Below, piece by piece: positions 42,200 through 59,343 of a stretch of DNA of 64,000 nucleotides. The stretch comes from Affinundibacterium macrobrachii. Its GTDB lineage: Bacteria > Pseudomonadota > Gammaproteobacteria > Burkholderiales > Burkholderiaceae_D. Under the pieces are notes generated by a model. The model did no database searches. It was not told where the DNA came from and was given only the letters and a program-made list of their open reading frames with translations. The stretch covers positions 496,001 through 560,000 of the forward strand of contig NZ_BMYT01000003.1 in the NCBI RefSeq assembly GCF_014652415.1, in the 5' to 3' direction. Every line of letters begins with the position of its first letter. Within the stretch, counting starts at the first letter, position 1. Made by a program: the position numbers and the translations under genes.

Positions 42200-42549
42200 T
42201 ATTCGTTGCGTCAGACTTACACGTCTTTAGACATCACACTTAATTCTCAGTTCTGTGTATTTAGGTTTGAGCTATCGATGCATTCGTCTAGATAAAGCAA
42301 AAAAAGCTAATCAATTTGACGAGCTGATTATATTGATTCCACGACACTCGAAGTTGCGTTTATTAATTAAATTTATCTTTTACCTTAGAACTTGTTAGCA
42401 TGTGCAATAACAACAGCCTCTCAGGTTTATACAATGCAATCAATACATTCACCGCTTGCGGCATTGGACAGACCAATTTAGAATAAACCTTGTCTGCTTG
42501 ACTTCACTTTTCACGCTTTTCTTCACGCTCTTCACCATATCGACACTCA
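42200..42549. other. Intergenic region upstream of gntR
   Basis: 350 bases between the divergent membrane-protein gene and gntR. It contains the operator-like site at 42465-42475. AT-rich elsewhere; no other gene seen. Confidence 0.5.
42465..42475. promoter_or_regulatory. Operator-like site before gntR
   Basis: TGGACAGACCA differs at two positions from TGGTCTGACCA found before the GH105 gene, and is flanked by T and A (TTGG...CCAA). It lies 75 bases before the gntR start, a good position for autoregulation. Confidence 0.5.
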
Positions 42550-43248
42550 ATGAAAAAAGTTGCTGCTGCATTAGAAAATATCGCGCCAGAACCACGCTTA
42601 TATCGCGTTGTCTCTAACCGCATCCAACAACTGATCAAGGACGAAAATATCGCAGCCGGAGAGCGTCTTCCATCTGAACGCGATTTAGCTAGCAAGCTTA
42701 ATGTCAGTCGTGCCTCACTACGAGAAGCCTTAATTGCCTTAGAACTAGGTGGAATTGTTGAAGTGCGTGGTGGCTCAGGTGTCTATGTCAGTGAACAAGC
42801 GAAAGCGGATAAGGATGTGCCAGAAGGTGGTCCAGGTCCGTTTGAAGTGTTGTCTGCACGTCGCTTAATTGAATCTGAAGTTGCCGCCATCGCGGCAAAG
42901 AATGCGACCGATTCTGCAATTGATGCCATCCTAAAAGCGGTGTTAGAGATGGAACGTCATCACGACAATCGCAACGAAAATGAAATGGCAGATCGCAACT
43001 TCCATCTGGCGATTGCACGTGCGACCGGCAATAGTGCTTTAGTTGGGGTGATCGAATATTTATGGAATCAACGCGGTAGCTTGTGGCACAAGTTAAAAGA
43101 ACATTTTCAAACCGAAGAGTTACGCAAACAAACACTGCTTGATCATCGTGCGATCTTAGAAGCGATCGCAGCGCATGATGCCAATGGCGCAAAACAGGCG
43201 ATGCGCGCCCATCTTGATCGAGTCAGCCGGACTTTTTCACGCGGATAA
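42550..43248 (+). CDS. FadR-subfamily GntR repressor, probable pectin/uronate regulator
   Basis: 232 residues: N-terminal winged helix-turn-helix (about 15-85, GERLPSERDLASKLNVSRASLREALIALELGGIVEVRGGSGVYV) and an all-helical FCD ligand domain with the metal-binding Asp/His pattern (NFHLAIARATGNSAL, DHRAILEAI). This architecture is that of ExuR, UxuR and related hexuronate regulators. It heads the pectin locus, and the TGGT-N3-ACCA palindromes that fit this subfamily occur before its own gene, the GH105 gene and the TonB receptor gene. Ligand probably galacturonate or an unsaturated product; this is inference. Confidence 0.9.
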   Translation: MKKVAAALENIAPEPRLYRVVSNRIQQLIKDENIAAGERLPSERDLASKLNVSRASLREALIALELGGIVEVRGGSGVYVSEQAKADKDVPEGGPGPFEVLSARRLIESEVAAIAAKNATDSAIDAILKAVLEMERHHDNRNENEMADRNFHLAIARATGNSALVGVIEYLWNQRGSLWHKLKEHFQTEELRKQTLLDHRAILEAIAAHDANGAKQAMRAHLDRVSRTFSRG

Positions 43249-43280
43249 ATTTTCGCGTATTCTTCTTAAATTTCGCCCAA

Positions 43281-43309
43281 CAAACGACCAGCTACTAGCT
43301 GGTCGTTTG
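43281..43309 (+). terminator. Terminator-like hairpin after gntR
   Basis: CAAACGACCAGCT (43281-43293) and AGCTGGTCGTTTG (43297-43309) form a perfect 13-bp stem with a 3-base loop, 33 bases after the gntR stop. The following CTTATG is only weakly T-rich. Confidence 0.65.
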
Positions 43310-43495
43310 CTTATGTGGGTTTATGTAAGCTTATGTCGACCTATATTGACCTGAATTGACATAAATAAGATAACTCGTCTCGCTAAACGCCTCACAAACT
43401 TGATGTGTAAGCATGTGAATGTAATAAAGTCACATCCTTAGTTATCATTATTTTCAAATAAAAATACGACATTCGGCTAGTCCACATTGCATATT

Positions 43496-43506
43496 TGGTC
43501 TTACCA
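43496..43506. promoter_or_regulatory. GntR operator-like palindrome 1 before GH105
   Basis: TGGTCTTACCA, a TGGT-N3-ACCA palindrome identical at all 11 bases to the site at 58478-58488 before the TonB receptor gene. It lies 83-93 bases before the GH105 start. Confidence 0.7.
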
Positions 43507-43514
43507 CATTAAAA

Positions 43515-43525
43515 TGGTCTGACCA
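43515..43525. promoter_or_regulatory. GntR operator-like palindrome 2 before GH105
   Basis: TGGTCTGACCA inside AAATGGTCTGACCAAATTT, a perfect palindrome around the central T, of the form recognised by FadR-type GntR proteins. Its centre is 19 bases from that of site 1, about two helical turns, so two dimers could bind side by side. Confidence 0.7.
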
Positions 43526-43588
43526 AATTTAAGCTATTGCAATTAAAGTATTCGATCACGATCAACTCAAAATCATAAAGAGACCGCT

Positions 43589-44995
43589 ATGAAACTTCAG
43601 ACTACCTTGCTCTGCTCCTTACTTTGCTCGTGCTTGTTGAGCGATATTGCACTGGCCGACAAACAGTATAGAAATCCAGACAATCCTAATTTGACGGATA
43701 AAGGCGAAGGAACGTATCCGATCCCGTATAAAAAACCCGTGATTAAAGAAATTACGGACTCCTTACATCAGATTCGTAACTATCTCGAATCAACTACGCC
43801 AACGCGAGTAATTAATAAATCGACTGGCGCGCCGATTAGCGATTTTAAAAAGCCAATTAAAGAAGCGATCTTTGAACCGAGCAAAGGTGACTACGGCATC
43901 ATGGTGTATGAGATGGGCGTGGTGCATTCTGGCTTATTGAAAGCGCGCGCCGCAACGGATGACAAAAGCTTCACCAATATGACCGAGCGTCACTTCCGCT
44001 TCTTCGCTGACACCATGCCTTATTTCAAGGCGCAAGAAGCGCAATTCCATTTGGAACGCGCAAATAGTTTTTCTCGTTTTCTAGACCCGCGTTCGTTAGA
44101 CGATAGTGGCTCGATGTGTGCTGCGCTTATTCGCGCACGCTTGGCCAACGTTGGGCCAGATTTAAAGCACATGATCGACATCTGCGGCAACTGGGTTTCA
44201 AAACAGCAGTTCCGTTTAGCAGATGGCACACTCGCGCGCAAACGTCCACAGGCGGTTTCCTTATGGGCAGATGATATGTACATGAGCATTCCGGCACTTG
44301 CCGAATTAGGTCGACTCACCGGCGACAATGCCTACTTCGACGATGCGGTAAACAATGTGCTGCAAATGTCCGCGTATATGTTTAATGCGCAACGCGGTTT
44401 ATACACACATGGTTGGAATGAGAACAATCCAGATGCACCACGCTTCTATTGGGCGCGTGCGAATGGTTGGGCGGTATTGGCGATGTCGGATCTGCTCGAC
44501 GTACTACCGAAAAATCATCCTGGTTATCCTAAAGTACTGAATCAATTGCGTGCCAGCTTGAAGGGAATTGCCGAGCTTCAATCCGGCAAAGGTTTATGGC
44601 ATCAAATGTTAGACCGCAATGATTCCTATCTCGAAACGTCAGCGAGCGCAATGTTTGTGTATGCGATTGCGCATGCGGTCAATCAAGGCTGGATTAGTCC
44701 AAGTACTTGGGGCTCTATCGCGCAAGCTGGTTGGATAGGTTTATCAACACGGATCACCGACAAAGGCGAGATTGAAGGAATCTGCGTTGGCACTACCTTC
44801 GCTAGCGATCACGCGTACTACTACAATCGTCCGACCAGCGTCGAAGCGTTGCATGGCTATGGACCGATGTTGATGGCTGGAGCCGAAGTCATACAAATGT
44901 TAAAGAATCCAGCGTTTAACATTGAACACAAGGTCAGAACTTATCACTACGTGCCGACGGGTGCTGCAAAAACCGATTATCGCGAGCATCACTAA
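43589..44995 (+). CDS. GH105 unsaturated rhamnogalacturonyl/galacturonyl hydrolase
   Basis: 468 residues with a signal peptide (cleavage after ALA, residue 23). An (alpha/alpha)6 barrel of family GH88/GH105: LDDSGSMCAALIRAR, RPQAVSLWADDMYMSIPALAELG, FYWARANGWAVLAMSDLL and YLETSASAMFVYAIAHAV all fit, including the acidic residues used for hydration of the unsaturated sugar. It removes the 4,5-unsaturated uronate from lyase products in the periplasm. First gene of the GH105-DUF4861-GH28 run. AAGAGACC precedes the ATG. Confidence 0.92.
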   Translation: MKLQTTLLCSLLCSCLLSDIALADKQYRNPDNPNLTDKGEGTYPIPYKKPVIKEITDSLHQIRNYLESTTPTRVINKSTGAPISDFKKPIKEAIFEPSKGDYGIMVYEMGVVHSGLLKARAATDDKSFTNMTERHFRFFADTMPYFKAQEAQFHLERANSFSRFLDPRSLDDSGSMCAALIRARLANVGPDLKHMIDICGNWVSKQQFRLADGTLARKRPQAVSLWADDMYMSIPALAELGRLTGDNAYFDDAVNNVLQMSAYMFNAQRGLYTHGWNENNPDAPRFYWARANGWAVLAMSDLLDVLPKNHPGYPKVLNQLRASLKGIAELQSGKGLWHQMLDRNDSYLETSASAMFVYAIAHAVNQGWISPSTWGSIAQAGWIGLSTRITDKGEIEGICVGTTFASDHAYYYNRPTSVEALHGYGPMLMAGAEVIQMLKNPAFNIEHKVRTYHYVPTGAAKTDYREHH

Positions 44996-45070
44996 TACAA
45001 ACAGCAAGCGCAGAATCGAAACGATACCAACACGGCCTAAACCTAAACAATTCAGTGATAGGAACGAGAC

Positions 45071-46357
45071 ATGCTTACAACTAGCCACCACAAGACACAT
45101 TCATCGGGTAAGCGTCATGCACAATTCAAGCTTAGAGCAACTACACTGGCATTGTGTCTGATGCCAGCAATCGGTCTAGCTCAAGATAAATTCAAAGTAA
45201 CGGTAACTCATCAGCTAGCTGATGCGCGTCCTTCAGAAACTATTACGATTCCATGGGCGCAAGTGAATCAATATTTGCCAGGTGCGTTGATACAGAAAAT
45301 CGCAATCAAAGATCAACACGGCAAAGTATTGCCACATCAGGTCACCAATATTGCGCCACAAGCCAAAGACCCGCAGGGAATTGGTATCGCTTATGGTGAA
45401 CTGATCTTCCAACATCACTTTGCGGCAGGTGAAAAACAAGCAAGCTTTACGATAGAAAAAATCGATACTGTCGCGCCCGTGTTTGAGACAAAAACCTTCG
45501 CAAGACAGATACCAGAGCGGCTCGATGACTTTGCTTGGGAAACCGATAAAATTGCGCACCGCACCTATGGCCCTGCATTAGCAGCGCCCGCACCTCCTGG
45601 CGTGACCAAGGAAGTATTAGTCACCAGCGGTATCGATATTTGGTTTAAACGCGTGCCCTATCCTATCGTAGATCGCTGGTATAACAAAGGACACGATCAT
45701 TATCATAAAGACGAAGGCGAAGGTCTGGATATGTATAACGTCGGTCGCTCTCGCGGATGCGGTGGCACTGGCATTTGGGACGGCAAACAACTACATACCA
45801 GTATCAATTATGCGCAGTGGAAAATACTCGCGAATGGTCCAATCCGCACCATCTTTGAACTGAGTTACCAAAGCTGGGATGCGGCAGGCGTTGCCGTTAC
45901 TGAAACCAAACGCTTCACGATTGATGCAGGCCATTATCTCGACAAAATTGAGAGTACGTTCCAATTCAATGCATCAACTGCCAATCCTCAACTTATTGCC
46001 GCTGTTGGTCTCAATAAAACACCGTCCGACAAAGGTCAACAAGCCAAGATTCAAGTCGAAAAAGATCAAGCATCATCTTCTTTATCACAATGGATAGAAC
46101 AATCGAGCAACGGTGCGATTGGCACCGCAATTATTCTTCCAGGTGCGGATGCTTATAGCGAAGATAGTCTCAATCATCTGATCTTGAAACCTGTCACCAG
46201 CGGTCAAAAAATGACTTACTACGCAGGCGCAATTTGGGAGCGCTGGGGCGATGTTAAAACACAAGAAGCTTGGTTGGATTACATAAACAAAATGGCGGCA
46301 CGCTATCGTGATCCGGTCAAAGTAAGCTTAAGTTCGATCAGCAATCAAACGCGTTAA
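45071..46357 (+). CDS. DUF4861-domain exported protein of pectin locus
   Basis: 428 residues with a signal peptide (cleavage after GLA, about residue 37). The DUF4861 domain covers most of the rest: WKILANGPIRTIFELSYQSWD, TETKRFTIDAGHYLDKIES, and YYAGAIWERWG near the end; conserved His/Asp/Glu residues cluster in NKGHDHYHKDEGEGLDMYNVGRSRGCGG. The family accompanies polysaccharide utilisation loci for uronate polymers, and its activity is not firmly established as far as I know. It lies 75 bases after GH105 with AGGAACGAG before the ATG. Confidence 0.85.
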   Translation: MLTTSHHKTHSSGKRHAQFKLRATTLALCLMPAIGLAQDKFKVTVTHQLADARPSETITIPWAQVNQYLPGALIQKIAIKDQHGKVLPHQVTNIAPQAKDPQGIGIAYGELIFQHHFAAGEKQASFTIEKIDTVAPVFETKTFARQIPERLDDFAWETDKIAHRTYGPALAAPAPPGVTKEVLVTSGIDIWFKRVPYPIVDRWYNKGHDHYHKDEGEGLDMYNVGRSRGCGGTGIWDGKQLHTSINYAQWKILANGPIRTIFELSYQSWDAAGVAVTETKRFTIDAGHYLDKIESTFQFNASTANPQLIAAVGLNKTPSDKGQQAKIQVEKDQASSSLSQWIEQSSNGAIGTAIILPGADAYSEDSLNHLILKPVTSGQKMTYYAGAIWERWGDVKTQEAWLDYINKMAARYRDPVKVSLSSISNQTR

Positions 46358-46427
46358 TGCTGACCAGATTTTAATTTAATCATCTAAACACGAACATCAA
46401 TTTTTGACCCAAATCATCGAGCACATC

Positions 46428-48275
46428 ATGCCAACCCATCAAACAATCAACCAACAGCGTCGTTCATTACTGCGCTACTCTAGCGCTGCTAGCCTATTCG
46501 GCTTATCGACACTTCCTACGCTGAGCCAAGCGACGAGCAATCCTGTAAAACACGATCCGTGGAAACATGCAGAACAAATTATTGCGCAGTTTACTAAGCC
46601 AATTAAATTTGCCAAGCGCGATTTTCTGATTACACAATTTGGCGCAAAGACGTGCGAACTGCAAAATATCAACGGCCAAGTTGCATCAGATACCGAAGGT
46701 GCAATCGAGGGTGTTATTCCAACACCTCAGACTGGCTCAGCAGATTGCTATCAAGCGATTAACCAAGCAATCATCGCTTGCAATAAAGCCGGCGGTGGAC
46801 GCGTTGTGATCCCTGCTGGGAATTGGTACTGTGCAGGACCAATACGTTTACGCTCAAACGTTCATCTACATCTAGCTGCGAATGCACACGTCTTCTTTAG
46901 TGCCAATCCCGCTGACTACGCCAAATATGGCGATGTCGATTGCGGCAAAAATGGCAAGCTCGTGATCTCTCGTTGGCAAGGCAATGATTGCCTCAATTAC
47001 TCGCCAATGATTTATGCCTACAACGAAAAAAATATTGCGATTACAGGCGAAGATTGGAGCAGTATTTTCGATGGTCAAGGCGGCACGCCTTTTGAAGATG
47101 GTTCTGGCAATTGGTGGGATTGGAAAGGTCGCAAGAATCCTAAAAAGCCGATCCAATTTTCAGAAGTGAATGTGAATGCAAATAACCCAGAAAATCTAGA
47201 TCAGCTTGCGCCAAACTTAAGCGAAGATGCTAAAAAATTGGTGCAAGGCATAGGCGATAAATGGCGTACTGATTCACGCTTTCTACCGGTATTGTCCGAA
47301 CTGGGCATTCCAACCTCGCGCAGAATATTTGGTATTGGACATTATTTACGTCCGAGCATGATTGAATTGATCGGCTGTCATAACGTGCTATTACAGGGTT
47401 ACAAAATACAAGCCGCACCGTTCTGGCTGCATCATCCTGTCAAGTGTCGCAAAGTACACATCAACAAAGTCAATATGGATAGCATGGGACCCAACAGTGA
47501 TGGTTTTGATCCCGAATCTTGCGATACTGTTTTGATCGAAAACTGCACCTTTAATACCGGTGATGATTGTATCGCGATCAAATCTGGCAAAAACCGCGAC
47601 ACGCAATTTGGTCCAACGCGTAACATTGTCGTGCAACACTGCGTAATGAATAGCGGTCACGGTGCAGTCACTTTAGGTAGTGAGATGGCGGCAGGTATTG
47701 AGTATATCTATGCGCAACATTTGGATTTCCGCAATATGAATTGGGACCATGATCCTTTAAATACGGCAATTCGAATGAAGACCAATATGAATCGGGGCGG
47801 TTTTCTACGTCACTTCTATGTACGCGATGTGAGTATTCCGAATGGCGTCAAAACCATGCCCGCGTTTTATAAACCTTTGCCAAATTCATTGATTGCACCG
47901 CAGTCGGTTCCGTCAACAGCGGGCGCGGTTATCACCATTGATTGTGATTACGCGCCAGCGGATGACAGCGTGCGTATCCGCCCACCTGTAATATCTGAAA
48001 TCCACGTCTCTGATATTAAAGTTGGCACTGTCAATATCGGTGGAGGAAATTACTCGAGTTATCAAGCATTTGTTTTGCTAGGACCAGTCGCTTCCAGCTA
48101 CAACGGCAAAACCAAGCAAGCGATCTTGCCGATACAAAATGTCAGCATCAGCAATTGCGACTTTGGTACCGTGCGCAATGACAAAGCACCGTGGTTCTTA
48201 CATCATGTGCAGAATCTGCAATTGCGTAACATCACAATCAATGGAAAATCTTATTCAGAAACGATTTCGACTTAA
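46428..48275 (+). CDS. GH28 polygalacturonase, Tat-exported
   Basis: 615 residues from the ATG at 46428 (GAG six bases before it); a TTG 24 bases upstream is less likely. The N-terminus carries a twin-arginine motif (QRRSLLRYSSAASLFGL), suggesting Tat export. A right-handed beta-helix with all GH28 motifs: NSDGFDPES, NTGDDCIAIKSG, GHGAVTLGSE and IRMKTN, giving the three catalytic Asp, the His and the substrate-binding Arg/Lys. It hydrolyses alpha-1,4-galacturonan, probably releasing monomers or dimers from chain ends. Long insertion (about residues 215-305) before the helix core. Confidence 0.93.
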   Translation: MPTHQTINQQRRSLLRYSSAASLFGLSTLPTLSQATSNPVKHDPWKHAEQIIAQFTKPIKFAKRDFLITQFGAKTCELQNINGQVASDTEGAIEGVIPTPQTGSADCYQAINQAIIACNKAGGGRVVIPAGNWYCAGPIRLRSNVHLHLAANAHVFFSANPADYAKYGDVDCGKNGKLVISRWQGNDCLNYSPMIYAYNEKNIAITGEDWSSIFDGQGGTPFEDGSGNWWDWKGRKNPKKPIQFSEVNVNANNPENLDQLAPNLSEDAKKLVQGIGDKWRTDSRFLPVLSELGIPTSRRIFGIGHYLRPSMIELIGCHNVLLQGYKIQAAPFWLHHPVKCRKVHINKVNMDSMGPNSDGFDPESCDTVLIENCTFNTGDDCIAIKSGKNRDTQFGPTRNIVVQHCVMNSGHGAVTLGSEMAAGIEYIYAQHLDFRNMNWDHDPLNTAIRMKTNMNRGGFLRHFYVRDVSIPNGVKTMPAFYKPLPNSLIAPQSVPSTAGAVITIDCDYAPADDSVRIRPPVISEIHVSDIKVGTVNIGGGNYSSYQAFVLLGPVASSYNGKTKQAILPIQNVSISNCDFGTVRNDKAPWFLHHVQNLQLRNITINGKSYSETIST

Positions 48276-48340
48276 GCTGGACTGGCGCTAAATCGATGCT
48301 GATTTGAAGCTAAATTAAAACTAATTTAGATCTAAGGCAA

Positions 48341-48368
48341 GCGAGTCATTGCTCAAACAATGACTCGC
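48341..48368. terminator. Convergent stem-loop after GH28
   Basis: GCGAGTCATTG (48341-48351) and CAATGACTCGC (48358-48368) form a perfect 11-bp stem with a 6-base loop between two convergent genes. No T-run follows on either strand, so termination efficiency is uncertain. Confidence 0.5.
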
Positions 48369-48378
48369 AAAATATGCC

Positions 48379-48798
48379 TCATAATTGAAGCGCATCGTAG
48401 AGTAACTTGAGTCCTGAAATACCCAATAAGCTAGTAGCCAGCGAATAAAAATAACGCTCTGGAATAATCTTCAATACATACAAGCCCAGCCACACTCCCA
48501 AGGGCGCAAAAATCGCCAAACTTGCAGCAATCTTCCAACTATCTAGCGTGAAAAATCCCATTGCGGCATAGGGTAATAATTTACCCGCATTGAGCACTGT
48601 AAAAAATACCGCGGTGGTGGCGACGAAAGTTTGCTTTGCCAAGTTTCTCGCCATCAAATACACCAGAATCGGTGGGCCACCAGCATGAGCAACCGTGCTG
48701 GTGATTCCAGAGATGATGGCACACAGACGTGCGAATTTTTTTCCAGGTAAATCATGCCAATGTAGTCGCTGACGTAACTGAAAAATTCTGTTCATCAA
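48379..48798 (-). pseudogene. TauE/SafE permease, C-terminal half only
   Basis: 139 residues in the readable frame. The segment AIISGITSTVAHAGGPPILVYLMARN is the signature of the second half of TauE/SafE sulfite/organic anion exporters, followed by three or four membrane segments to a normal C-terminus. Full-length members have about 250 residues with a matching first half. Here an in-frame stop lies ten codons upstream of the first Met, and no N-terminal half is readable in the 397 bases before it. I take it as a truncated remnant; a half-size permease acting as a homodimer is a less likely alternative. Confidence 0.7.
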
Positions 48799-49195
48799 AT
48801 TGGACGCAAAGGGGTACTGCGATGCTTATGGAGTAGCGGCGCTACTCAGGCGAAAACAGCAACAGCATTTTTCTCCAGAACCACATTGGTGACTGGTGCG
48901 GTTCACGCAACAGCAAGACAAAGCAAAAGGCTTGAAGGCATTTTGAGTTGCATGTGTGATGGCGTTATAGAAAAATTTTTATCGCGGTAATTTGCGTGTA
49001 CTTGGTTCGACTACTCGACTATCGGGGGACTTATGAGTGACTCCATGCTTGTTGCAATTGGATAATGGAAGAATGGGGAATTTAGCGCTTTCCTCAGCCG
49101 CGCAACGACCATATTGAGACACTTAACTGCACTCCCCACGATACCGTGAGCTCATCACTGGGACATTGAAACAGCCCCCCGTTACTACCTAAATA
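48799..49195. other. Gene-free spacer between truncated TauE and serine hydrolase
   Basis: 397 bases without a convincing gene. It contains a 7-bp hairpin GAGTAGC-ggc-GCTACTC (48831-48847) and, near the right end, TGGGACATTGAAACAG (about 49159-49174), a close match to TTGGAACATTGAAACAA at about 52908-52924 on the other side of the serine hydrolase/unknown genes. This pair may be remnants of insertion-sequence ends. Confidence 0.4.
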
Positions 49196-50458
49196 TTACT
49201 GTTTGGCTGCTTTATCTGCTTGAATCTTCATTTGCACTGCATGCTTCCAAAGCGTCTCGAAGATATTATAGAAGTGTCCAGATTCTTCGTCATGCATTGA
49301 GGTATTTGTAAACAGAATCACACCGATTTCCTTGTTTGGATCTGCCAGCATGATTGTTCTCACTCCGGGATCGGATCCGTTATGCCCAATCCTGGTGGTG
49401 TCGTGCTTCGTGGCCCAGAAAATTCCAGAATTAACCGAGTCTTCCCCTTGAATGTTGACGTTGTCTGGCTTATTTGCACTCGTGTACTGGAACCTGAGCA
49501 TCTCGTCGACTGACTTCTGCTCAAGCATTCGTGTCCCTTCATATTTGCCATCATTCAGCAACGCGATAAAGAACTTGGAGAGGTCGGATACCGAGGTGCG
49601 GACGCCACCTTCTGGATATGTCGTTATCCCGTATTGAGGAATAGGAATGCGGAGGCCTTGCGAGACGTACAGCCGTGCATGCTTCGCAGGCAATATTTCA
49701 GATAAGAACCAGCCAGAGTTTTTCATTCGCAGAGGGGCAAAGATGTGACGCTTGGTATAGGTATTGAGCTTCTCGCCGACAACAACCTCGACGATGTAGC
49801 CAGCCAGCGCAGCTCCGATATTCGAGTACTCGCGGGACGTCCCCGGTTTGGCCTTTAGGAAGTTGTCGCTCGAATAGTATTTACCGTTGCGCGCGAAGTA
49901 GCCCCGCAAAAACTCTCCAAGGGCTTCCGGGGAGTCACCTCCGAAGTGATACACGCGTTCGTAGACCGACGGTCTATCTGTGATTCCCGAGGTGTGGGTA
50001 GCCAGTTGCCTGAGTGTGATAGGCTCGCTCGGATGGTGGGGATTAATGACTTTGAAAGGCAGGTAGGAATTGATGTTTTCATCAAGAGAGACTTTCCCCT
50101 CTTGCACCGCTCGCATCAACGCTACGCCAGTAAAAGTCTTACTGATTGATCCGATATTCATAATCGTATCGGGAGTGAATGCTATCGCGCGTTCCTTATC
50201 GGCGAAGCCATATCCCTTCATCCAAACTACTTTCTTGTTCACGATGATGGCGCCACCAACTCCAACCATCCCTCCTTCTTTGATTCGTTGCCCGACAATG
50301 GAATCGATTTGAGCGTTCACATCTTCAGATTGCGTTCTAGTCTTAACACCTCCATCTGACGACATGCTTGTTTTCATTGCGAAGCTATTACACGCCGACA
50401 GTAGCAATACCACTAAGGAAAAAAAAGATAAGACATACCTTGAACGTTTAGTAGACAT
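49196..50458 (-). CDS. Lipoprotein-type serine hydrolase, beta-lactamase/DD-peptidase family
   Basis: 420 residues. A lipoprotein signal with LLSAC (Cys23) is followed by a serine beta-lactamase/class C fold: SxxK as SISK (104-107) in MNIGSISKTFTGVAL, YSN in SREYSNIGAALAGYIVE, and HNG in GHNGSDPGVRT in place of KTG. Relatives include esterases, D-aminopeptidases and EstB-like enzymes; antibiotic resistance should not be assumed. Composition stands out: 49801-49980 is about 57% GC by hand count, while the next genes are much poorer. It lies in the patch that interrupts the pectin locus, so recent acquisition is likely. Confidence 0.88.
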   Translation of the reverse strand: MSTKRSRYVLSFFSLVVLLLSACNSFAMKTSMSSDGGVKTRTQSEDVNAQIDSIVGQRIKEGGMVGVGGAIIVNKKVVWMKGYGFADKERAIAFTPDTIMNIGSISKTFTGVALMRAVQEGKVSLDENINSYLPFKVINPHHPSEPITLRQLATHTSGITDRPSVYERVYHFGGDSPEALGEFLRGYFARNGKYYSSDNFLKAKPGTSREYSNIGAALAGYIVEVVVGEKLNTYTKRHIFAPLRMKNSGWFLSEILPAKHARLYVSQGLRIPIPQYGITTYPEGGVRTSVSDLSKFFIALLNDGKYEGTRMLEQKSVDEMLRFQYTSANKPDNVNIQGEDSVNSGIFWATKHDTTRIGHNGSDPGVRTIMLADPNKEIGVILFTNTSMHDEESGHFYNIFETLWKHAVQMKIQADKAAKQ

Positions 50459-50569
50459 CGCCCACCCTTAAAATAGTAAAAAAGAATTCGCACTATACAT
50501 GTCAACATACTTTTGAGACTTCAGAAATATTTATTTAAAATGTATAGAAAATGTATGCTTCTAACATAA

Positions 50570-50766
50570 TCAGGTATTAACCTCTCGGGACATGAGATGC
50601 TTCCTCGCCCCTTTTGCTCTGTTGTTGAAGGGGATCGGGTTTTTGAGGTTGGTTGTGCCGTAATTGTAGGCGACGATGCCAGGTTGATCCGTGATGCGAG
50701 TTACCCTGTTGGGTCGTCGTAGATTTGTTTGTCCTTACCCCCTATTTGCAGACTCTTATGGACTCT
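50570..50766 (-). pseudogene. Decayed YD-repeat (Rhs-like) fragment
   Basis: On the minus strand one frame reads ...QIYDDPTG then stops at TAA (about 50701); the adjacent frame continues directly with RVTRITDQPGIVAYNYGTTN and ends at TGA (50572-50570). Joined across a small frameshift this gives YDDPTG-RVTRITDQPGIVAYNY, matching the Rhs/YD repeat pattern YDxxGRxTxxTDxxGxxxxYxY. Nothing else of an Rhs gene is present. A short, broken remnant; the assignment rests on about 25 residues. Confidence 0.45.
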
Positions 50767-50792
50767 TCACACATTTAATTTGCCCTATTCTT

Positions 50793-51437
50793 TCAAGTTT
50801 CTCGTACTCCCATACATTTATAGAGCGCAGCTTTAGCCTTAAGAGTACCCTCAAAATTTAAAGTTAATACCGATTTGCCATCTAAAAGAAGTTCTACTTT
50901 ACTTTTATCTTCGGCAGCTTTTAAAGTTGCCTCCATTTTTACAGGTATGATCAATGCGTTTCCTATGTGGAAAAATGGAAACTTTCCCGTTTCACCATTC
51001 ACACGCATGGTAACCTCGACCTTTTTCATCTCTCCTTTATTTTCAGGAATGCTGCCTCCCCTGTACACTATACTGGACATAGCATCCTTTCCTATTCCCC
51101 AGTTATAGAACATGCCTCCCGAATCAAGCTCCACATATGCTGCCATGCAGCGCGGTCCTATTTCAACCTTCTTCCCGTCATATAACACCCAAACACTGTC
51201 ATCACGCGCCTCATAAATTAACTCTGGATCAGACAAGCCTGGCATCGAAGGCACTGGCATATCATACATTCCTTTGTACTTCATCTTGCTTGTTGGTACT
51301 CCTGATGCTCCAAACAATATATTTGGCAGCCCTACATTAGCTTCTTGTGGATTTGCCCATGCAGCAGAACTTGCATTTGGTAGACATAAGTTTATTGCAG
51401 CCAACAACAAAATTTGTCGTGAAATTTTTTTGTACAT
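50793..51437 (-). CDS. Exported protein of unknown function
   Basis: 214 residues with a signal peptide (cleavage near SSA/AWA, residues 24-28) and a very strong ribosome-binding site (AGGAGGAG) before the ATG at 51437. I recognise no family. The mature part is beta-rich (SVWVLYDGKKVEIGPRC, KKVEVTMRVNGETGKFPFFHIGNALIIPVKMEATL, KVELLLDGKSVLTLNFEGTL) and has two cysteines that could pair. It lies 52 bases downstream of another exported unknown on the same strand; the two probably form an operon. Confidence 0.7.
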   Translation of the reverse strand: MYKKISRQILLLAAINLCLPNASSAAWANPQEANVGLPNILFGASGVPTSKMKYKGMYDMPVPSMPGLSDPELIYEARDDSVWVLYDGKKVEIGPRCMAAYVELDSGGMFYNWGIGKDAMSSIVYRGGSIPENKGEMKKVEVTMRVNGETGKFPFFHIGNALIIPVKMEATLKAAEDKSKVELLLDGKSVLTLNFEGTLKAKAALYKCMGVRET

Positions 51438-51489
51438 CTAATTTCTCCTCCTTTTTCTTCCTTTGATTGTCTAAATTTTAAATACTTGC

Positions 51490-52689
51490 TTACTTAGCAG
51501 AAGCATTTTGTGGAGTCTTAATTAAATCTTGACACGCATTACCACCGGCACGAATATCACTTGTCGAGGTACTGATACGAACATCTGCCACCCTGAAAGT
51601 GTGTTTTTTATCCTTAGCTAAAACAAAATCCACATCGCAACTTCTCAAAACACCACTCTCAATCACTTGTCCTGTTGATCTATTTTGCAAAAAAGCACGG
51701 TTATCAAAACTTTGACTGTAACGCCTAAAACGCAATTGGTCAGCTTCGCTAAACAATCCTGCCCCCATTCGCATAATAAGTAGTTCTTCAGTTTGACCTT
51801 GCCAAATCATGATGGCAGAAGATTCTGTATTACTTAACTCTCTTGAACCACGGATTTTTAAAGCATATTTGGCAAATGCATCGTCGATATGTTTTTTTTC
51901 AATTTCAGGCAAATATTCCTCTTCAATTCGCGACTTCAATGTATTCATCTTTTCGCTAATTGAACCTAATTGCTTTGCTCTTTCATCAATCTCTGCTTTT
52001 GTCAGCACTCGATCTGCTGGGCTAACTGGCTTAACGCTCCCCTCCCATAACATCTTCCATGTAAACGCAGTAAGTGCGGGCGCTGTAGCATCAACATCAA
52101 CCACATGAATTGGTGCTTGAAAGCCAAGCAATTTGAGTTTCTGATTAAAGTCTTCTTTATTAAAATGATTGTTCTTAATAGCATTCACCACTGCTTTAGA
52201 AACTTGATTTTGTTCATGTTCCAGACACGCAACTTTTTGCGTTTGCAACATTACATGACTGCCAATTGAAGAAAACTCTGTTTCGGGAATCGCCTCACCG
52301 TTAAGTGTTCGACGAATAAAATTCACACTATTATCTGCCACTCGTACTTGCACAGGGTCAGTCGCATTCGGAACATTAGCAAAGACTTTACCCAGATGAT
52401 CTTTCTTATGATGACACACGAATTGTAAACGCATGATTGACCATTCTGGCTGTGGTTCAGCTTCATAGACAATGTACATGGTAATTTGACTAACGTATGT
52501 CGATGCAAACAAATCCTTCATATTGACAGGCGTTCTAGAAAGCACGTTTGATCCAACATAATAGGCAACACGCTCTCCTTTTTTACCTTCCATGCTAACC
52601 AAATAGGTAAATTCAGCAAAGGCCAAATTAGACATCGAAAGAAAAACCGTTAATAACCATGAAGTTCTGAAAAATTTTATGTATCGCAT
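51490..52689 (-). CDS. Exported protein of unknown function, AT-rich gene
   Basis: 399 residues with a signal peptide (cleavage after AFA, residue 25). No family recognised. The N-terminal half has beta-strand character (FTYLVSMEGKKGERVAYYVGS) with CHHKKDHLGK; the middle (about 215-300) is a charged, helical, possibly coiled-coil segment (KAEIDERAKQLGSISEKMNTLKSRIEEEYLPEIEKK); the C-terminal part has two cysteines (SGVLRSCDVDF and GGNACQDLIK). The gene is AT-rich (51781-51900 about 34% GC by hand count), unlike the serine hydrolase gene nearby and the core genes, suggesting separate foreign origin. Confidence 0.7.
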   Translation of the reverse strand: MRYIKFFRTSWLLTVFLSMSNLAFAEFTYLVSMEGKKGERVAYYVGSNVLSRTPVNMKDLFASTYVSQITMYIVYEAEPQPEWSIMRLQFVCHHKKDHLGKVFANVPNATDPVQVRVADNSVNFIRRTLNGEAIPETEFSSIGSHVMLQTQKVACLEHEQNQVSKAVVNAIKNNHFNKEDFNQKLKLLGFQAPIHVVDVDATAPALTAFTWKMLWEGSVKPVSPADRVLTKAEIDERAKQLGSISEKMNTLKSRIEEEYLPEIEKKHIDDAFAKYALKIRGSRELSNTESSAIMIWQGQTEELLIMRMGAGLFSEADQLRFRRYSQSFDNRAFLQNRSTGQVIESGVLRSCDVDFVLAKDKKHTFRVADVRISTSTSDIRAGGNACQDLIKTPQNASAK

Positions 52690-53567
52690 CGTAGCCTCAC
52701 ATGATTAACGTATATATGAATCGTACTACCTAGTTTTAGAAAAATTCAGCGAAACAATCCACTCACCAACACAAAAAAACATTTTCTGGGTAGCATGCGC
52801 TATTCAAGAGAAATGTTTTGCCTTCTTATCGAGCTTGTCTTCGCCACACTACGTTTTTCAAAATACCAAAATCTGGTCAAGTAATGATCGCCCCCAATTG
52901 GAACATTGAAACAATTTAGGTAAACGGCAGCTAGAGCGTGTTGCAGCTTCGGACTGCCAATTTGGTAAGACGATTACTTGCTAGCTCGTTCATTGAAGCA
53001 CTCTCGTCAAGTCGCATTTTTACGTCACTTAGGGGAAAGTTTTTTTGTTGAAGTTGAATAAATTAAATTTCCTCCGATAAAGCCAGTGGTTTATTACTTG
53101 GGCGCCTCAAAGCCCCTAGTACACAGTAATCCTCCTACAGCCCAATCTTCATTTGACGCCGAATATTTCGGCGGTACACTCAGACAAACATGGGCACGAC
53201 CCGCCATCAAATGCCGTCAACCACCTTACACTCTCTTTGCTGCGCTGATTCTCGGAATATCTCACTGAAATGCTGACAGAACGTTCCATGAGTCACCTTC
53301 CTTCTGCATTGAACTTTCCCTTATTTTGATAGGGACTAAAGTTTCAAACTGACCGTCGAGTAGATTAAATCTTGGTAAGCCCCCCCATCAGAGCCGAGGG
53401 AATTGCCTTATGTATTTAAAGTAAACACTAATTACACAAATATATTACTTTATTAAATTCTATTTTATTTAACCATTTAAAAAAACTCAAGCCGAAAAAT
53501 GCACCGTCACTAGCCACAGAATGGAAGCGTGGCCTAAGTTTCCCCCAAATCTATTGTCGCGTTGTCT
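52690..53567. other. 878-base region without recognisable gene
   Basis: No convincing protein gene on either strand; a 60-codon frame at 53086-53268 lacks a good start and family. The stretch TTGGAACATTGAAACAA (about 52908-52924) resembles a site at 49159-49174, and AAGTTTCAAACTGACC (about 53338-53353) recalls sequences flanking insertion elements. I read it as scar tissue of past insertions, plus whatever promoter drives the AT-rich gene pair. The right end (53400-53480) is very AT-rich. Confidence 0.4.
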
Positions 53568-54944
53568 TCACTTGCGATTCAATCTAGGCAACCATTTCCG
53601 AGTATCCCAATCGTCTTCAGAAAAACCTAACTGCACTTCTTTAGAATAAGGATAAGCACTGACCTCACGCTCATCATTGATGATAGTGCCGCGCCCTTCT
53701 GCGATGTAGTAAATCACGCGCGTATCATCCTTATCTCTATCCCAAGGACGGGCACCTGCATATCGTAGTAATTCCGACTCGACCATTCTTGCATCGAGTA
53801 CCTTAAGGTCTTGCGGCCAGTCGATAGGCTTTGATTGTAAAAGTAGCTGGGCTCGCGTCTCACCATAGCGCCCGAATAGCGGGAGTTGATTACCAAACTG
53901 ATCGACCGCGATATTATCTTTCGCAAAGTAAGCGAGATCACCATCCCCACCCAACATCATCAATGGTAAAGCTTTCTTGGTTGACATTCCACCTCGCAAC
54001 ACATTCGCGACCACATTCAGCCTACCTGTTTGATATGGATGATCGCCCCATTCCAATGCCATCAAGTTGTAATGAATCGCTTTTGACCTTGGGTTGTAAA
54101 TCAAGTTATTCGCAATGGTCGCGCTGGCGCCGCCTTTTAACAGAGGATTACGTTCTACGTTATGCGCCCATATATTGCGATAAAAAATCACATTCGTCAC
54201 ATTGTCATGAACTAAGCTTCCTTTTGAATGTTCGCCCTTTGCGTGTGTCGATTCTGCCAAACCTTCTGCTGCAAGATTATTTGAAAACAAAATGTGATGA
54301 CTGGTTGCATTGCGCCATTCTTCTGGCGTATTCCCTTTAAACCGAGGACCAGATACCGACATGTTTTCATCGATGGCCCAACTCATACTACAGTGATCAA
54401 TAATCACATGGTGTGCCGCTGAAATATTTAAACCATCAACTTCCCAGCCACTTGCTTTGGCCTGCCCGTCGGCACCAGTGCGGATACGAAGATGCTGAAT
54501 AATCACATGCGAGGCACGAATATTGATGCCACCGCGAATCAGTGTAATGCCTGGTGAGGGCGCGGTTTGCCCAGCAATCGTCACGAAACCTTCGTTGACT
54601 TGCAATACACTGCGCTCTAAATCGATCACACCGGCAACTTCGAAGACGATGGTTCTAGCTCCCTTGGTTTCTAGCGCTGCACGTAAGTAACCTATACCTT
54701 CTTTTCGTAAGTTCGTCACACGAATAATCTTGCCGCCTTGCCCTCCTTTTACTTCATCTAACCAAGCAATATCATTCGGATGCGCGTAGTTTTTATGCAG
54801 AGCATCGATATCACTTGCCTTACCGCTGACGACAATGAACAGATTAATGAGGATGGCGAGTAGCGCCAGAGAAATAAAACGATCAAGCCGTAAACCAAGT
54901 CCTTGTCGATTAAAAAAATTGCCAGTCATTTCACGCATCATCAT
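53568..54944 (-). CDS. PL1-family pectate lyase
   Basis: 458 residues from the ATG at 54944 (GGA six bases upstream); several nearby ATGs and a TTG at 54980 are alternatives. A hydrophobic N-terminal segment (about 22-43) acts as signal or anchor. Parallel beta-helix lyase: GGKIIRVTNLRKEGIGYLRAALE, FEVAGVIDLERSVLQVNEGFVTIAGQTAPSPGI, SAAHHVIIDHCSMSWAIDENMSV (calcium-site region), NVIFYRNIWAHNVERNPLLKGG (catalytic Arg region). It cleaves polygalacturonate by beta-elimination, giving 4,5-unsaturated ends for the GH105 enzyme. Downstream of the TonB receptor gene but behind its terminator. Confidence 0.9.
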   Translation of the reverse strand: MMMREMTGNFFNRQGLGLRLDRFISLALLAILINLFIVVSGKASDIDALHKNYAHPNDIAWLDEVKGGQGGKIIRVTNLRKEGIGYLRAALETKGARTIVFEVAGVIDLERSVLQVNEGFVTIAGQTAPSPGITLIRGGINIRASHVIIQHLRIRTGADGQAKASGWEVDGLNISAAHHVIIDHCSMSWAIDENMSVSGPRFKGNTPEEWRNATSHHILFSNNLAAEGLAESTHAKGEHSKGSLVHDNVTNVIFYRNIWAHNVERNPLLKGGASATIANNLIYNPRSKAIHYNLMALEWGDHPYQTGRLNVVANVLRGGMSTKKALPLMMLGGDGDLAYFAKDNIAVDQFGNQLPLFGRYGETRAQLLLQSKPIDWPQDLKVLDARMVESELLRYAGARPWDRDKDDTRVIYYIAEGRGTIINDEREVSAYPYSKEVQLGFSEDDWDTRKWLPRLNRK

Positions 54945-55003
54945 TCGCATTCCATCGGTTCTCAGTGATACTGCAAACAACTAGCATCACCGCTTTTCTT
55001 ACC

Positions 55004-55050
55004 AAAAAAAATAGCGCAACTTAACGAGGGAGTCTTGTTAAGTTGCGCTA
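55004..55050 (-). terminator. Strong rho-independent terminator after TonB receptor gene
   Basis: A perfect 14-bp stem, TAGCGCAACTTAAC (55012-55025) with GTTAAGTTGCGCTA (55037-55050), with an 11-base loop; on the minus strand the tail is eight T (55011-55004). It lies 64 bases past the receptor stop and before the pectate lyase gene. Confidence 0.93.
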
Positions 55051-55113
55051 TCGTCTACTGCACACGATGATCAATCAAACGAACATCGCTTTCGTCCTGG
55101 GGAGGATGAAATT

Positions 55114-58059
55114 TTAGAATTTATAACGAACACCAAGTAAATATTCACGACCTGTCACATTGTTCACCACGACGCTATCGCGCAAGCGGCTAATGAATTG
55201 ATCATTTGCTTGATTGGTCAAGTTAGAACCTTCAAAGCTGATTTCCCATTGATTGTTGATCTTGTATGTGACCGAGAGATCAACGTTGACTGTGCTATTT
55301 TTACCTTCGACGTCATTATTATTTTGACCTGGAACACGAGTCACAAACGAAGAACGTTTGGAAGCAGAGACGCGGGCACTGAATGAACCATCATCGTAGT
55401 ACAGAGTGGCATTCCAAGATTTAGGAGAGAGATTCAACAAATCATCGGTAATAGTTGCGCTACTGGTTGGTGAAACCACATATTCAATCTTCGATTTCAC
55501 ATAGGTGTAGTTCAACAAAGTACCAAAGTTTTTACCCCAAGCTGGCAAGAAGGTAAATGGCTGCTGATAATTCAACTCAAAACCACTCAACTTACCGCCC
55601 TTGGTATTAATCGGTGCGGTGACTTGGAATACTTCTTCTCCAGTAAAGTTCGCAGGCAATAAAGACATTGGCAAACCCGTATCTTTATAAGCGACGTTAG
55701 TACGAATACTTTGAATATAGGTATTGATATTCTTTTGGAATAAACCCAAACCTAAGAAAGCGTTTTTACCGAAATACCACTCAAAATTAGAATCGAAAGT
55801 ATCAGCACGGAATGGCTGCAATAATGGATTGCCGCTCGTCACCGATAAAGTACCAGTAGTCGAAATCGTGCCGCCTGGATTTAAGTTACCCAACTGTGGA
55901 CGTGCCATGACTTTGGCGGCAGCAAAACGCGCGATAAAATCACGGCTCACATTAATCGCGATGTTCGCAGATGGTAAGAAATCATTGTAGGTGTTACGTA
56001 CGGTAACTGGCGTACCACCACCCGCAGCTTGATAGCCAGTAGCGATTTGCTCAGTTTGCACATAGCGCGCACCGAAGTTACCACGCACGCGATATCCTGC
56101 TACGGTATTGTTAAAATCACCCATCAAGAAAACGCTCTTGTCATTTTCTTCGACAGCACGATTATTACCTCGCGCATTACCGTTCGTAATCGAAGACAAA
56201 GTGAAATCACCGGGGCCACCCACAGGTCCACTCTTCAAACAATTACAATAAATATCGTATGCTTTCGCAATTGCGTTCAAGTCAGGAATCAACCACGAAG
56301 TTGGAGTGCCCGCTGGCAAATTTTGACCACGACCAAAGCCCGTTAATTGGGTCGTTAAACTAGCGATATTTGTTCCCGCATTCGGCGCAAAAATCGTGTC
56401 GTTTTGATTCACACGACGCGACTCATAAGAATTAAAATTATATTTCTTCACATCTGCGCCGGCACGCAAAGTCAATTTATCTTCAATCGCATCCCATGAG
56501 AAATCGACATGCACAACATCATTACGGTTATTCGCACCTTGTGGACGAATACGAATTTCGCTCGTGGTTGTGTTTGGTACGGTTCCAGCTTGTGTGCCAG
56601 ATGTCACTTGTGGCACGGTAGCCAAAGTCATTGGTCCAGTTGCCGAGGTGACATCGAATGGATACGTAATCACTGGCGCACGATCATCACCGCGAAAATC
56701 CAAGGCGTAACCGTTGACATTAATTGCATCTAAAGTGGTGGTGGTTTGCACAGGATTCGCGAACTTGGAAGTAGCGCGACCAATCCGTGCATTCATACGG
56801 AAAGTGTCACTGAATTGATGATCCAAAGTGAGTGTAGGCTGTGTGAATGTGGTGGATAACTCATCGAAGCGCGATTCTGCACGCACATCTACACCGTTAT
56901 ACATGCCATACAATAGTGAGCCATTTGGCGCGTATTCCGTTTTAACCACGCTGGTTTGTGGCTTACCACCTTGACTGGCAGAACGGCTAAATGAAATCGC
57001 CTCCAAAAAATCTTCTTGACGTGTTGCTTCGAGTTTTGAATACAGCATATCGAATGAAAACACCGTACCGCGTTGTGGTTTATATTGCAAAGAAGCGGTT
57101 AAACCAAGACGATCTTGGTCATGCGTTAAACGACCATAGCGCGGTAAACGTGGCACAAAATTATTCGCTGAACTCGCCAAATTATAGGCGGCAATATTTT
57201 CTGCTGTGCCAGGTAAACGTGACACGCCTTGCGCCGCAGGTCCGCAAGTCGTTGCTGTCGAATTACTTGGATTTGCTGGAGTCACACCCATCGGTGCGCA
57301 CCAACCACCAGAAGATGGGCCATTGTCCCAACGCACTGTACTGAAACCTTCTTCAAAAACTCGGCGCTTAGAAAACGCACCGGACAATAAAGCGCCGAAA
57401 GTATTATTCGCAAACGTATTCGAGACTAAGAAGCCAACACGCGGATCGGTTTTCTGTGACAAATCATTGTAGCGACCTTTCGCCATCACACTTGCATTGA
57501 AGCCACGCAAATCGAATGGACGCATGGTTTGCAAATCTACGGTCGCGCCCAACGAGCCTTCATCAACATCAGCAGAAGCACTTTTACGAACAGTTAAGGA
57601 ATTAAATAATTCTGATGGGAAGACATTGAAGTCAAAACCGCGCGAGCGGTTTGCACCACCTGAACTATCGGTACCGCCAGTCGTCGCCAAGCCTTCAATA
57701 CCATTGATACGCACACGTGTGAAATCTTGTCCCAAACCACGCACCGTGACGCTACGTCCTTCACCCGCATCACGATCAATCACGACACCTGGAATACGTT
57801 GCAAAGACTCGGCCAAGTTTGTATCCGGAAACTTACCCATATCCTCCGACTTCACCACATCGACGATGCCATTATCATCGCGCTTCTTATTTAAGGCACT
57901 TTCCAATGATGCGCGTAAGCCAGTGATGACAACCAAGGTTGGCTGCTCTTCGGTTTTTGGCTTGCTGTCTTGCGCATACGCACCACTAATTGCCATTGCC
58001 ATGACGGAAGCGGTCATGGCGAGTCGTCCGAATTTTTTTCTAAAGTTTCTGTTACGCAT
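55114..58059 (-). CDS. TonB-dependent receptor, probable oligogalacturonide importer
   Basis: 981 residues. Signal peptide (cleavage after AYA, residue 29), plug domain (about 40-170, with GLRASLESALNKKRD, DTNLAESLQRIPGVVIDRDAGEGRSVTVRGLG) and a 22-strand outer-membrane barrel ending in GREYLLGVRYKF with the terminal Phe. The TonB-box region is near LVVITGLRAS. It belongs to the large carbohydrate-type receptors known from Caulobacter and Xanthomonas. Placement with PL1, GH28, GH105 and a uronate-type GntR regulator points to uptake of oligogalacturonides. Four operator-like palindromes lie upstream. Confidence 0.93.
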   Translation of the reverse strand: MRNRNFRKKFGRLAMTASVMAMAISGAYAQDSKPKTEEQPTLVVITGLRASLESALNKKRDDNGIVDVVKSEDMGKFPDTNLAESLQRIPGVVIDRDAGEGRSVTVRGLGQDFTRVRINGIEGLATTGGTDSSGGANRSRGFDFNVFPSELFNSLTVRKSASADVDEGSLGATVDLQTMRPFDLRGFNASVMAKGRYNDLSQKTDPRVGFLVSNTFANNTFGALLSGAFSKRRVFEEGFSTVRWDNGPSSGGWCAPMGVTPANPSNSTATTCGPAAQGVSRLPGTAENIAAYNLASSANNFVPRLPRYGRLTHDQDRLGLTASLQYKPQRGTVFSFDMLYSKLEATRQEDFLEAISFSRSASQGGKPQTSVVKTEYAPNGSLLYGMYNGVDVRAESRFDELSTTFTQPTLTLDHQFSDTFRMNARIGRATSKFANPVQTTTTLDAINVNGYALDFRGDDRAPVITYPFDVTSATGPMTLATVPQVTSGTQAGTVPNTTTSEIRIRPQGANNRNDVVHVDFSWDAIEDKLTLRAGADVKKYNFNSYESRRVNQNDTIFAPNAGTNIASLTTQLTGFGRGQNLPAGTPTSWLIPDLNAIAKAYDIYCNCLKSGPVGGPGDFTLSSITNGNARGNNRAVEENDKSVFLMGDFNNTVAGYRVRGNFGARYVQTEQIATGYQAAGGGTPVTVRNTYNDFLPSANIAINVSRDFIARFAAAKVMARPQLGNLNPGGTISTTGTLSVTSGNPLLQPFRADTFDSNFEWYFGKNAFLGLGLFQKNINTYIQSIRTNVAYKDTGLPMSLLPANFTGEEVFQVTAPINTKGGKLSGFELNYQQPFTFLPAWGKNFGTLLNYTYVKSKIEYVVSPTSSATITDDLLNLSPKSWNATLYYDDGSFSARVSASKRSSFVTRVPGQNNNDVEGKNSTVNVDLSVTYKINNQWEISFEGSNLTNQANDQFISRLRDSVVVNNVTGREYLLGVRYKF

Positions 58060-58477
58060 GATGTTTGTCCTTTTGGTCTCGAATAGTTTTTATAAAGCTA
58101 GAAGTTAAAAAATATCTGGCTTCTTGTTTTCCTCTGATTCATTGGGCGCTGATCAGACGCACCAACACGGCAACAAAAAAACGATTACATTTCGACTTTT
58201 TTAACTTTGATTCGATTCTAAAAGTATTTATCAGCCCAACGCGAGAACTTTTAACGATGTAAAAATAGTAAATTTAATTAAAATGCATCCATTGAAAGAA
58301 TTTTTAAAATTTTCCCTATTGGCATTTTTATCGCAAAAATCATTTAAATCCAGTTAAATTACACGCAAATTCTTCCAAAATATTTTTTATTTCCATAAAT
58401 AAATAGACTTATTTTTACTTTTTATAGACTTATCGGCGGTAAAATATTTATCGATCTAGCGTCCAAAAAACAACAAT
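58060..58477. other. Leader/promoter region of TonB receptor gene
   Basis: Very AT-rich spacer between the receptor start and the operator cluster, about 420 bases. It should contain the receptor promoter, but no -35/-10 pair stands out against the AT-rich background. The unusually long distance between the operator cluster and the start codon suggests a long 5' leader. No gene seen. Confidence 0.45.
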
Positions 58478-58488
58478 TGGTCTTACCA
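58478..58488. promoter_or_regulatory. Operator palindrome R1 before TonB receptor
   Basis: TGGTCTTACCA, identical over 11 bases to the site at 43496-43506 before the GH105 gene, 15 kb away. Confidence 0.7.
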
Positions 58489-58498
58489 GATTTATTTT

Positions 58499-58508
58499 TG
58501 GTTCACCA
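58499..58508. promoter_or_regulatory. Operator-like palindrome R2 before TonB receptor
   Basis: TGGTTCACCA inside TTTTTGGTTCACCAAAAA: the same TGGT/ACCA half-sites with a 2-base instead of 3-base centre and an extended A/T palindrome. Confidence 0.5.
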
Positions 58509-58520
58509 AAAATATGACTT

Positions 58521-58531
58521 TGGTCAATCCA
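58521..58531. promoter_or_regulatory. Operator-like palindrome R3 before TonB receptor
   Basis: TGGTCAATCCA inside TTTGGTCAATCCAAATT. The left half-site is intact and the right has one mismatch. Confidence 0.5.
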
Positions 58532-58542
58532 AATTACGAAAA

Positions 58543-58553
58543 TAGTCTTACCA
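58543..58553. promoter_or_regulatory. Operator-like palindrome R4 before TonB receptor
   Basis: TAGTCTTACCA, one mismatch to R1. R1 to R4 start at intervals of about 21-22 bases, i.e. on the same helix face. Confidence 0.6.
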
Positions 58554-58591
58554 CTTATATCAATTCTAGGTTCATTTTGAATTAATCTGCG

Positions 58592-59293: not shown

Positions 59294-59343
59294 GAGGATT
59301 CACCTATCAAGGAGTTTTTAAAAAAACCACCGCAAATTTTAAT

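Follow-up and report, generated by a model that had tools for sequence, protein, structure and literature searches.

Predicted operators shared by a pectin locus and a garD-udh locus point to a two-paralogue GntR regulon in Undibacterium

Gene content and predicted operators of the pectin locus

The stretch of DNA analyzed here (64,000 nucleotides; referred to as the window) corresponds to positions 496001-560000 of contig C3 in a 4.27 Mb genome (20 contigs) from a freshwater-type bacterium. A gntR gene on the forward strand (42550-43248; referred to as gntRA) encodes a FadR-subfamily regulator of 232 amino acids (GntRA), in which the winged-helix domain PF00392 (65.3 bits; cut-off 27) and the FCD domain PF07729 (90.1 bits; cut-off 24.3) were both over the cut-off. 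On the same strand are genes for a GH105/GH88-type unsaturated uronyl hydrolase (43589-44995; PF07470), a DUF4861/BT_3233-family polysaccharide utilisation protein (45071-46357; PF16153, and NF058564 over the cut-off), and a GH28-like protein of the polygalacturonase/galacturonidase type (46404-48275; PF00295). The reverse strand carries genes for a PelZ-like pectate lyase (53568-54980; NF041900 at 341.9 bits, below the 840-bit cut-off) and a TonB-dependent receptor of the Xanthomonas/Caulobacter type with 981 amino acids (55114-58059; TIGR01782 at 654 bits, over the cut-off).

A reverse-strand gene at 48379-48798, which we take to encode a TauE/SafE-like permease, matched only residues 133-268 of the protein of a relative (L007), and is apparently a remnant. 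Between this remnant and the pectate lyase gene, positions 49196-52689 contain genes for a beta-lactamase-fold protein and two proteins without a family match: all three were present in L004, only the first of them in L005, and none in L006, L007, L008, L010, and L011. We read the segment as inserted in one lineage, with the 15 kb gap between the two parts of the locus widened as a result. No match to Rfam was obtained within positions 42000-60000 of the window.

An earlier note on this DNA had described an identical 11-mer on both sides of this gap together with five variants, and the window sequence confirmed all seven sites at their coordinates: TGGTCTTACCA at both 43496-43506 and 58478-58488, TGGACAGACCA at 42465-42475, TGGTCTGACCA at 43515-43525, TGGTTCACCA at 58499-58508, TGGTCAATCCA at 58521-58531, and TAGTCTTACCA at 58543-58553. 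Two of the descriptions needed adjustment. TGGTCTGACCA, called a perfect palindrome, has palindromic arms with the centre base excepted, while TGGTTCACCA is present and conserved but is a 10-mer with a spacer of 2 bp instead of 3 bp. The pattern TGGTNNNACCA with at most one mismatch occurred at 33 places in the window, versus 17.4 ± 4.1 in shuffles. A matrix of 19 positions was trained on 39 distinct intergenic exact TGGTNNNACCA sites from loci L012-L083, a set that excludes the window's own clade (L004-L011). The six sites with a 3-bp spacer took ranks 1-6 in the window with this matrix (25.1, 22.5, 20.3, 17.7, 16.0, and 12.9). In 40 dinucleotide shuffles, the top single score was 18.8, and the number of places scoring at least 12 averaged 0.7 with a maximum of 2, versus 6 in the window. 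The site at 58499-58508 scored 0.1, its 2-bp spacer being the wrong spacing for this matrix.

Three other places were considered as extra sites and rejected: 52963 (11.5, the next best in the window) is altered in U. baiyunense (L004), 58984 (10.6) lies within an OmpA-like ORF, and 49003 (one mismatch) is outside the 14 best matrix places. The operator consensus from 45 distinct 23-mers was aaWTTGGTCWGACCAAWtt, in which the TGGT/ACCA boxes were imposed by the search pattern. The predicted operators have the features of FadR-subfamily sites, in which TKGT/ACMA boxes are separated by a GT-AC distance of 3 nt, sometimes 2 nt (PMC4494728), and they are probably read by GntR.

Second locus, promoter-like elements, and the TonB-side array

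The earlier note had suggested a matrix scan of the genome, to see whether hits fall before other uronate genes; here, the genome was scanned with patterns. The pattern TGGTCNNACCA occurred at 52 distinct places, eight of which were outside ORFs of at least 100 aa: three in the window, three at a second gntR gene (referred to as gntRB), and two elsewhere, so that six of the eight belonged to two pectin/galacturonate loci. The narrower TGGTCTKACCA occurred at seven places in the genome: three in the window and two at gntRB near C3:220 kb, while the remaining two were within long ORFs, apparently genes for a subunit of complex I and for an Mpl-like ligase. At this second locus (L002), approximately 320 kb from the window, gntRB is divergent from genes for galactarate dehydratase (garD; TIGR03248 over the cut-off) and a uronate dehydrogenase (udh), whose product matched solved uronate dehydrogenases; downstream of gntRB are genes for a TonB receptor, a GDSL esterase, and a GH28-pectinesterase fusion. 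Since the same sites were found at the window and the gntRB-garD-udh locus, the regulon would have two centres approximately 320 kb apart; a shared regulon is strongly supported, and it would extend beyond the window locus to garD-udh and gntRB.

The gntRB product (GntRB) was 72% identical to GntRA, and both had the identical segments SRASLREA and VRGGSG, which are presumably the DNA-reading helix and wing. D148, H152, H199, and H221, which we take to be the Asp/His set for metal binding in the FCD domain, were invariant in all nine aligned GntR proteins; in the product from U. baiyunense (L004), identity with GntRA was 100% (BLAST-rounded) across 232 residues. The gntR genes of the window type and those linked to garD formed separate clades, with support of 100/99 for both. 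The earlier note had attributed the sites to a single FadR-subfamily GntR: the subfamily is supported by PF00392 and PF07729, but two paralogues are present. Since they share the same helix and wing, the regulator is probably the pair of GntRA and GntRB rather than one protein.

In alignments of the upstream regions (gntR, nine rows; GH105, eight; TonB, seven), the operators were among the few invariant stretches in diverged DNA. Before gntRA, a promoter-like element on the forward strand (42456-42484; TTGCGG-N17-TAGAAT) contained TGGACAGACCA in the spacer, and CATTGGACAGACCAATTTAGAATA was invariant in 9/9 rows (the window and L004-L011) between diverged flanks. The corresponding element of the GH105 operon (43487-43515, forward strand; TTGCAT-N17-TAAAAT) contained TGGTCTTACCA in the spacer, and a 24-base run, TTTGGTCTTACCACATTAAAATGG, was invariant in 8/8 rows (the window, L004-L008, L010, and L011). 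The second GH105 operator (43515-43525, forward strand) lies at the end of the -10 hexamer, with its centre 19 bp from that of the first, and was TGGTCTGACCA in the window and L004-L006 and TGGCCTGACCA in L007, L008, L010, and L011. Before gntRB, the operator was likewise within the 17-bp spacer of a promoter-like element (TTGCAA-N17-TAGAAT), and the first base of the second operator was the last one of the -10 hexamer, as before GH105. A further invariant block on the forward strand, CGGCTAGTCCA (43474-43484; 8/8 rows), is located 22 bp ahead of the first GH105 operator, and GGCTAGTCCA recurred before gntRB and before GH105 in two other genomes (G030 and G031). This block, possibly a degenerate third site, was weak by the matrix: the L002 copy scored 9.3, and the window copy was absent from the list of places scoring at least 8.

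The composite TTGCNNNNTTGGNCNNACCANNTTARAAT gave three exact hits in the 4.27 Mb genome (gntRA, GH105, and gntRB), none with one or two mismatches, and one with three mismatches, which equalled the whole count of the reversed control; since the composite was written from these three sites, the result is the absence of others, not the presence of the three. A plain sigma-70 consensus scan did not flag the gntRA and GH105 elements, and the -35-like hexamers of the composite elements are poor; the gntRA, GH105, and gntRB promoters were assigned from conservation and spacing, and are referred to as promoter-like.

The TonB side differed in layout. Four sites on the reverse strand lie approximately 420-495 bp upstream of the TonB start codon, with centre distances of 20.5, 22.5, and 22 bp. 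Site 1 (TGGTCTTACCA, 58478-58488; matrix score 20.3), which is nearest the gene, was found as TGGTAAG[AG]CCAATTGTTGTTTT in 7/7 aligned rows (A in five and G in two). Site 2 (TGGTTCACCA, 58499-58508), the variant with a 2-bp spacer, was TTTGGTGAACCAAA in 6/7 rows and TTTGGCGAACCAAA, with one base changed, in L089. Site 3 (TGGTCAATCCA, 58521-58531; 16.0) was TGGATTGACCA in 6/7 rows and TGGATCGACCA in L089, and site 4 (TAGTCTTACCA, 58543-58553; 12.9) was retained as TGGTAAGACTA in only 3/7 rows. A TTGTTG stretch is located 2 bp past site 1, and the array is upstream of this stretch. Closer to the gene, a block of fixed length at 58213-58249 (reverse strand; AGTTCTCGCGTTG...TTTTAGAATCG) was strongly conserved in 7/7 rows, with AGTTCTCGC and TAGAAT kept, and occurred only once in the genome. 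This block, more than 200 bp downstream of the array, is a candidate promoter or leader element; the promoter scan upstream of the TonB gene did not flag the conserved candidate promoters.

The TonB homologues L091-L099, which were scanned for sites but are outside the alignment, had no exact site in the 1500 bp upstream; L086 was also outside, as its match starts from residue 63 and lies close to the end of a contig. In L014, L016, and L020, the TonB receptor gene is placed behind GH105 and the site of GH105.

Distribution among relatives

Among the best 80 of 116 gntR loci, nearly all titled as Oxalobacteraceae genera and one only as Burkholderiales, the 500 bp before gntR contained 55 TGGTNNNACCA sites in 32/80 loci (3.2 expected from density), and five control patterns gave 0-1 sites. 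In the same 80 of 116 loci, 67 of the 126 TGGTNNNACCA sites were intergenic by a simple gene call (45 distinct 23-mers, 48 loci), in comparison with 0-2 of 4-19 for five permuted half-sites. No exact TGGTNNNACCA was found within 500 bp before gntR in 48/80 of these best 80 of 116 loci, including the window clade, in which the gntR operator is the variant TGGACAGACCA, retained in 9/9 rows.

The composite with at most one mismatch was present in 25/25 genus genomes with gntR (a product match at E<=1e-60) and in 0/18 without (43 genomes, our own included), this threshold having been chosen after the table was seen; at up to two mismatches, G036, a genome without gntR, also had a hit. The Fisher value for this co-occurrence (1.6e-12; 43 related genomes, kinship ignored) overstates independence because the genomes are related and the pattern was derived from one of them. 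With up to three mismatches, there were 73 hits in 30 genomes, versus 14 for the reversed pattern. G030 and G031 each have a single gntR, which is garD-linked; the GH105 gene that the composite and the second operator precede is 4.69 Mb distant along the contig in G030 and 4.61 Mb distant in G031 (perhaps shorter round a circle). The operator thus follows the target genes rather than the regulator gene, and the garD-type GntR alone appears to serve GH105 in these two genomes.

Proposed regulation and alternative readings

The proposal of the earlier note that one operator code unites both parts of the locus is strongly supported by the matrix ranks, the conserved footprints, and the 25/25 versus 0/18 co-occurrence. 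The sequences show where the sites are, how they are placed and conserved, and that they co-occur with gntR; from this, we infer binding, repression, shared use by the paralogues, and an effector. In the reading that we consider quite likely, GntRA and GntRB form a FadR-subfamily repressor system with shared operators and one pectin regulon. A GntR dimer occupying the 17 bp that separate the -35 and -10 hexamers would block RNA polymerase and repress both gntRA (autoregulation) and gntRB as well as the GH105-DUF4861-GH28 operon, and the second operator at the end of -10 would strengthen repression of the GH105 operon and gntRB. One further operator would serve garD-udh, and the four-site array would serve the TonB receptor-pectate lyase unit. 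On binding of a uronate-type metabolite in the FCD metal site, the repressor would presumably leave the DNA, and pectin depolymerisation, outer-membrane import, and galacturonate oxidation would probably be switched on together.

Repression of the regulator gene itself, the hydrolase operon, and the receptor gene, as claimed in the earlier note, is a reasonable inference at gntRA and GH105 (and gntRB), where the operator fills a conserved promoter-like spacer; control of the TonB gene by GntR is less clear, since the sites are far upstream. Activation, or looping from the four-site array, may operate there instead of simple repression. FadR acts both as a repressor and an activator, and the array is upstream of TTGTTG and of the conserved TAGAAT block. 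On the other hand, the operator is within the spacer at the three other promoters, and site 1 abuts a possible -35, so that repression of the occlusion type works too; on balance, activation or looping is a minority possibility, if a real one.

The other alternatives concern the reader of the sites. GntRA may serve only the window locus and GntRB only garD-udh, the sites being shared only because a promoter region was duplicated. Such a duplication is suggested by the common GGCTAGTCCACATTGCA preamble and two-operator layout of the promoter regions of GH105 and gntRB, and the two gntR clades are separate; however, the helix and wing are identical, and in G030 and G031 a GH105 promoter of this type stands 4.6-4.7 Mb from the one garD-linked gntR, which makes such a division of work unlikely. 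It is much less probable still that the sites are read mainly by another FadR-subfamily protein, PdhR-like or a third GntR. PdhR regulates pyruvate dehydrogenase in E. coli, unlike the pectin targets here. The PdhRop site contains the identical 11-mer TGGTCTTACCA, in CAATTGGTCTTACCAATTT (PMC3265435). GntRA scored 74.6 bits with the PdhR equivalog (cut-off 330). The co-occurrence with gntR argues against this reading. The third FadR-type GntR (30% identical) is encoded in a kdgD cluster (L100 5556-14402; C3:186-195 kb) together with an aldehyde dehydrogenase, an MFS transporter, an SMP-30-type protein, and GH43; its helix (SRTVVREA) and wing (TRHGIG) differ, and a scan of four of the intergenic stretches in this cluster revealed no operator. 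The last pathway steps may then have other control. Chance palindromes would be conceivable for single places, most of which are meaningless: TGGTNNNACCA occurred at 140 places genome-wide and its reversed pattern at 87, which leaves it too unspecific by itself, and TTGGTCTKACCA with up to two mismatches occurred at 709 versus 543 in the control and was useful only in the 0-1 mismatch rows. For the sites as a set, chance is scarcely credible in view of the cross-species conservation, matrix ranks, intergenic enrichment, and co-occurrence.

The two-paralogue repressor system was compared with known regulators. The best two NCBIfam matches of GntRA were UxuR (157.5 bits; equivalog cut-off 442) and ExuR (146.6 bits; cut-off 396), both far below the cut-off. 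These E. coli hexuronate regulators belong to the same FadR subfamily and the same pathway area; ExuR sites have the 3-nt GT-AC distance of the window sites, and UxuR sites 2 nt (PMC4494728). Unlike theirs, the targets here include TonB import, pectate lyase, GH105, and the oxidative udh-garD route. GguR of Halomonas, a GntR-family protein, has been predicted to control galactarate/glucarate genes and also, in one strain, a udh operon (PMC5507952). Linkage to such genes holds for GntRB but not for GntRA, and the likeness of GntRB to GguR is one of description and gene linkage; neither pectin depolymerases nor TonB receptors belong to the GguR regulon as described there. In Corynebacterium glutamicum, GntR1 and GntR2 are a pair of functionally equivalent GntR regulators with one gene set in common (PMC2230225), acting on gluconate catabolism and glucose uptake, unlike pectin here. 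The half-site rule, the 11-mer in the PdhR operator, and a GntR-run galactarate/udh regulon were thus already known, and the present system is a well-supported further example of such control. Among the literature matches listed, none described this regulon in Undibacterium or Massilia; most subscription journals were outside this scope, and this is no proof of novelty.

For Undibacterium and relatives, these results provide a map of how pectin use may be regulated, ready for testing and with promoters, bases, and two candidate regulators; they also illustrate how two identical 11-mers spotted by eye led to a regulon supported by presence and absence over 43 genomes. Whether paralogues split signals yet share DNA could be asked cleanly with such duplicated repressors, which have one operator code. 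A more speculative extension, which we regard as doubtful, is that the two duplicated repressors, with the same DNA-reading residues and diverged effector domains, compete for one portable promoter cassette (an operator in a fixed 17-bp spacer and a second operator at the start site) that tags pectin genes wherever they have moved in Undibacterium. The same operators would then integrate two different signals from pectin, such as one from oligomers and another from galacturonate or galactarate.

Several places outside the two loci were also noted. The TGGTCNNACCA place at C3:95296 was set aside as chance: it is located 508 bp before the nearest ORF of at least 100 aa, presumably a SucC-like start, reading away. 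At C6:120541 (L134 1337-1359), CAAATTGGTCATACCAATCATTG precedes a GGDEF-domain gene and was largely conserved in 5/5 aligned genomes, with single changes in L182, L183, and L184; this is either an extra target of the same regulator or the site of another regulator. The GH43 gene in the kdgD cluster had no composite hit. In other Undibacterium genomes, weaker composites (two to three mismatches) were located at or just before GH43 ORF starts: G024, G030, G038, and G052 (L171, L172, L175, and L177).
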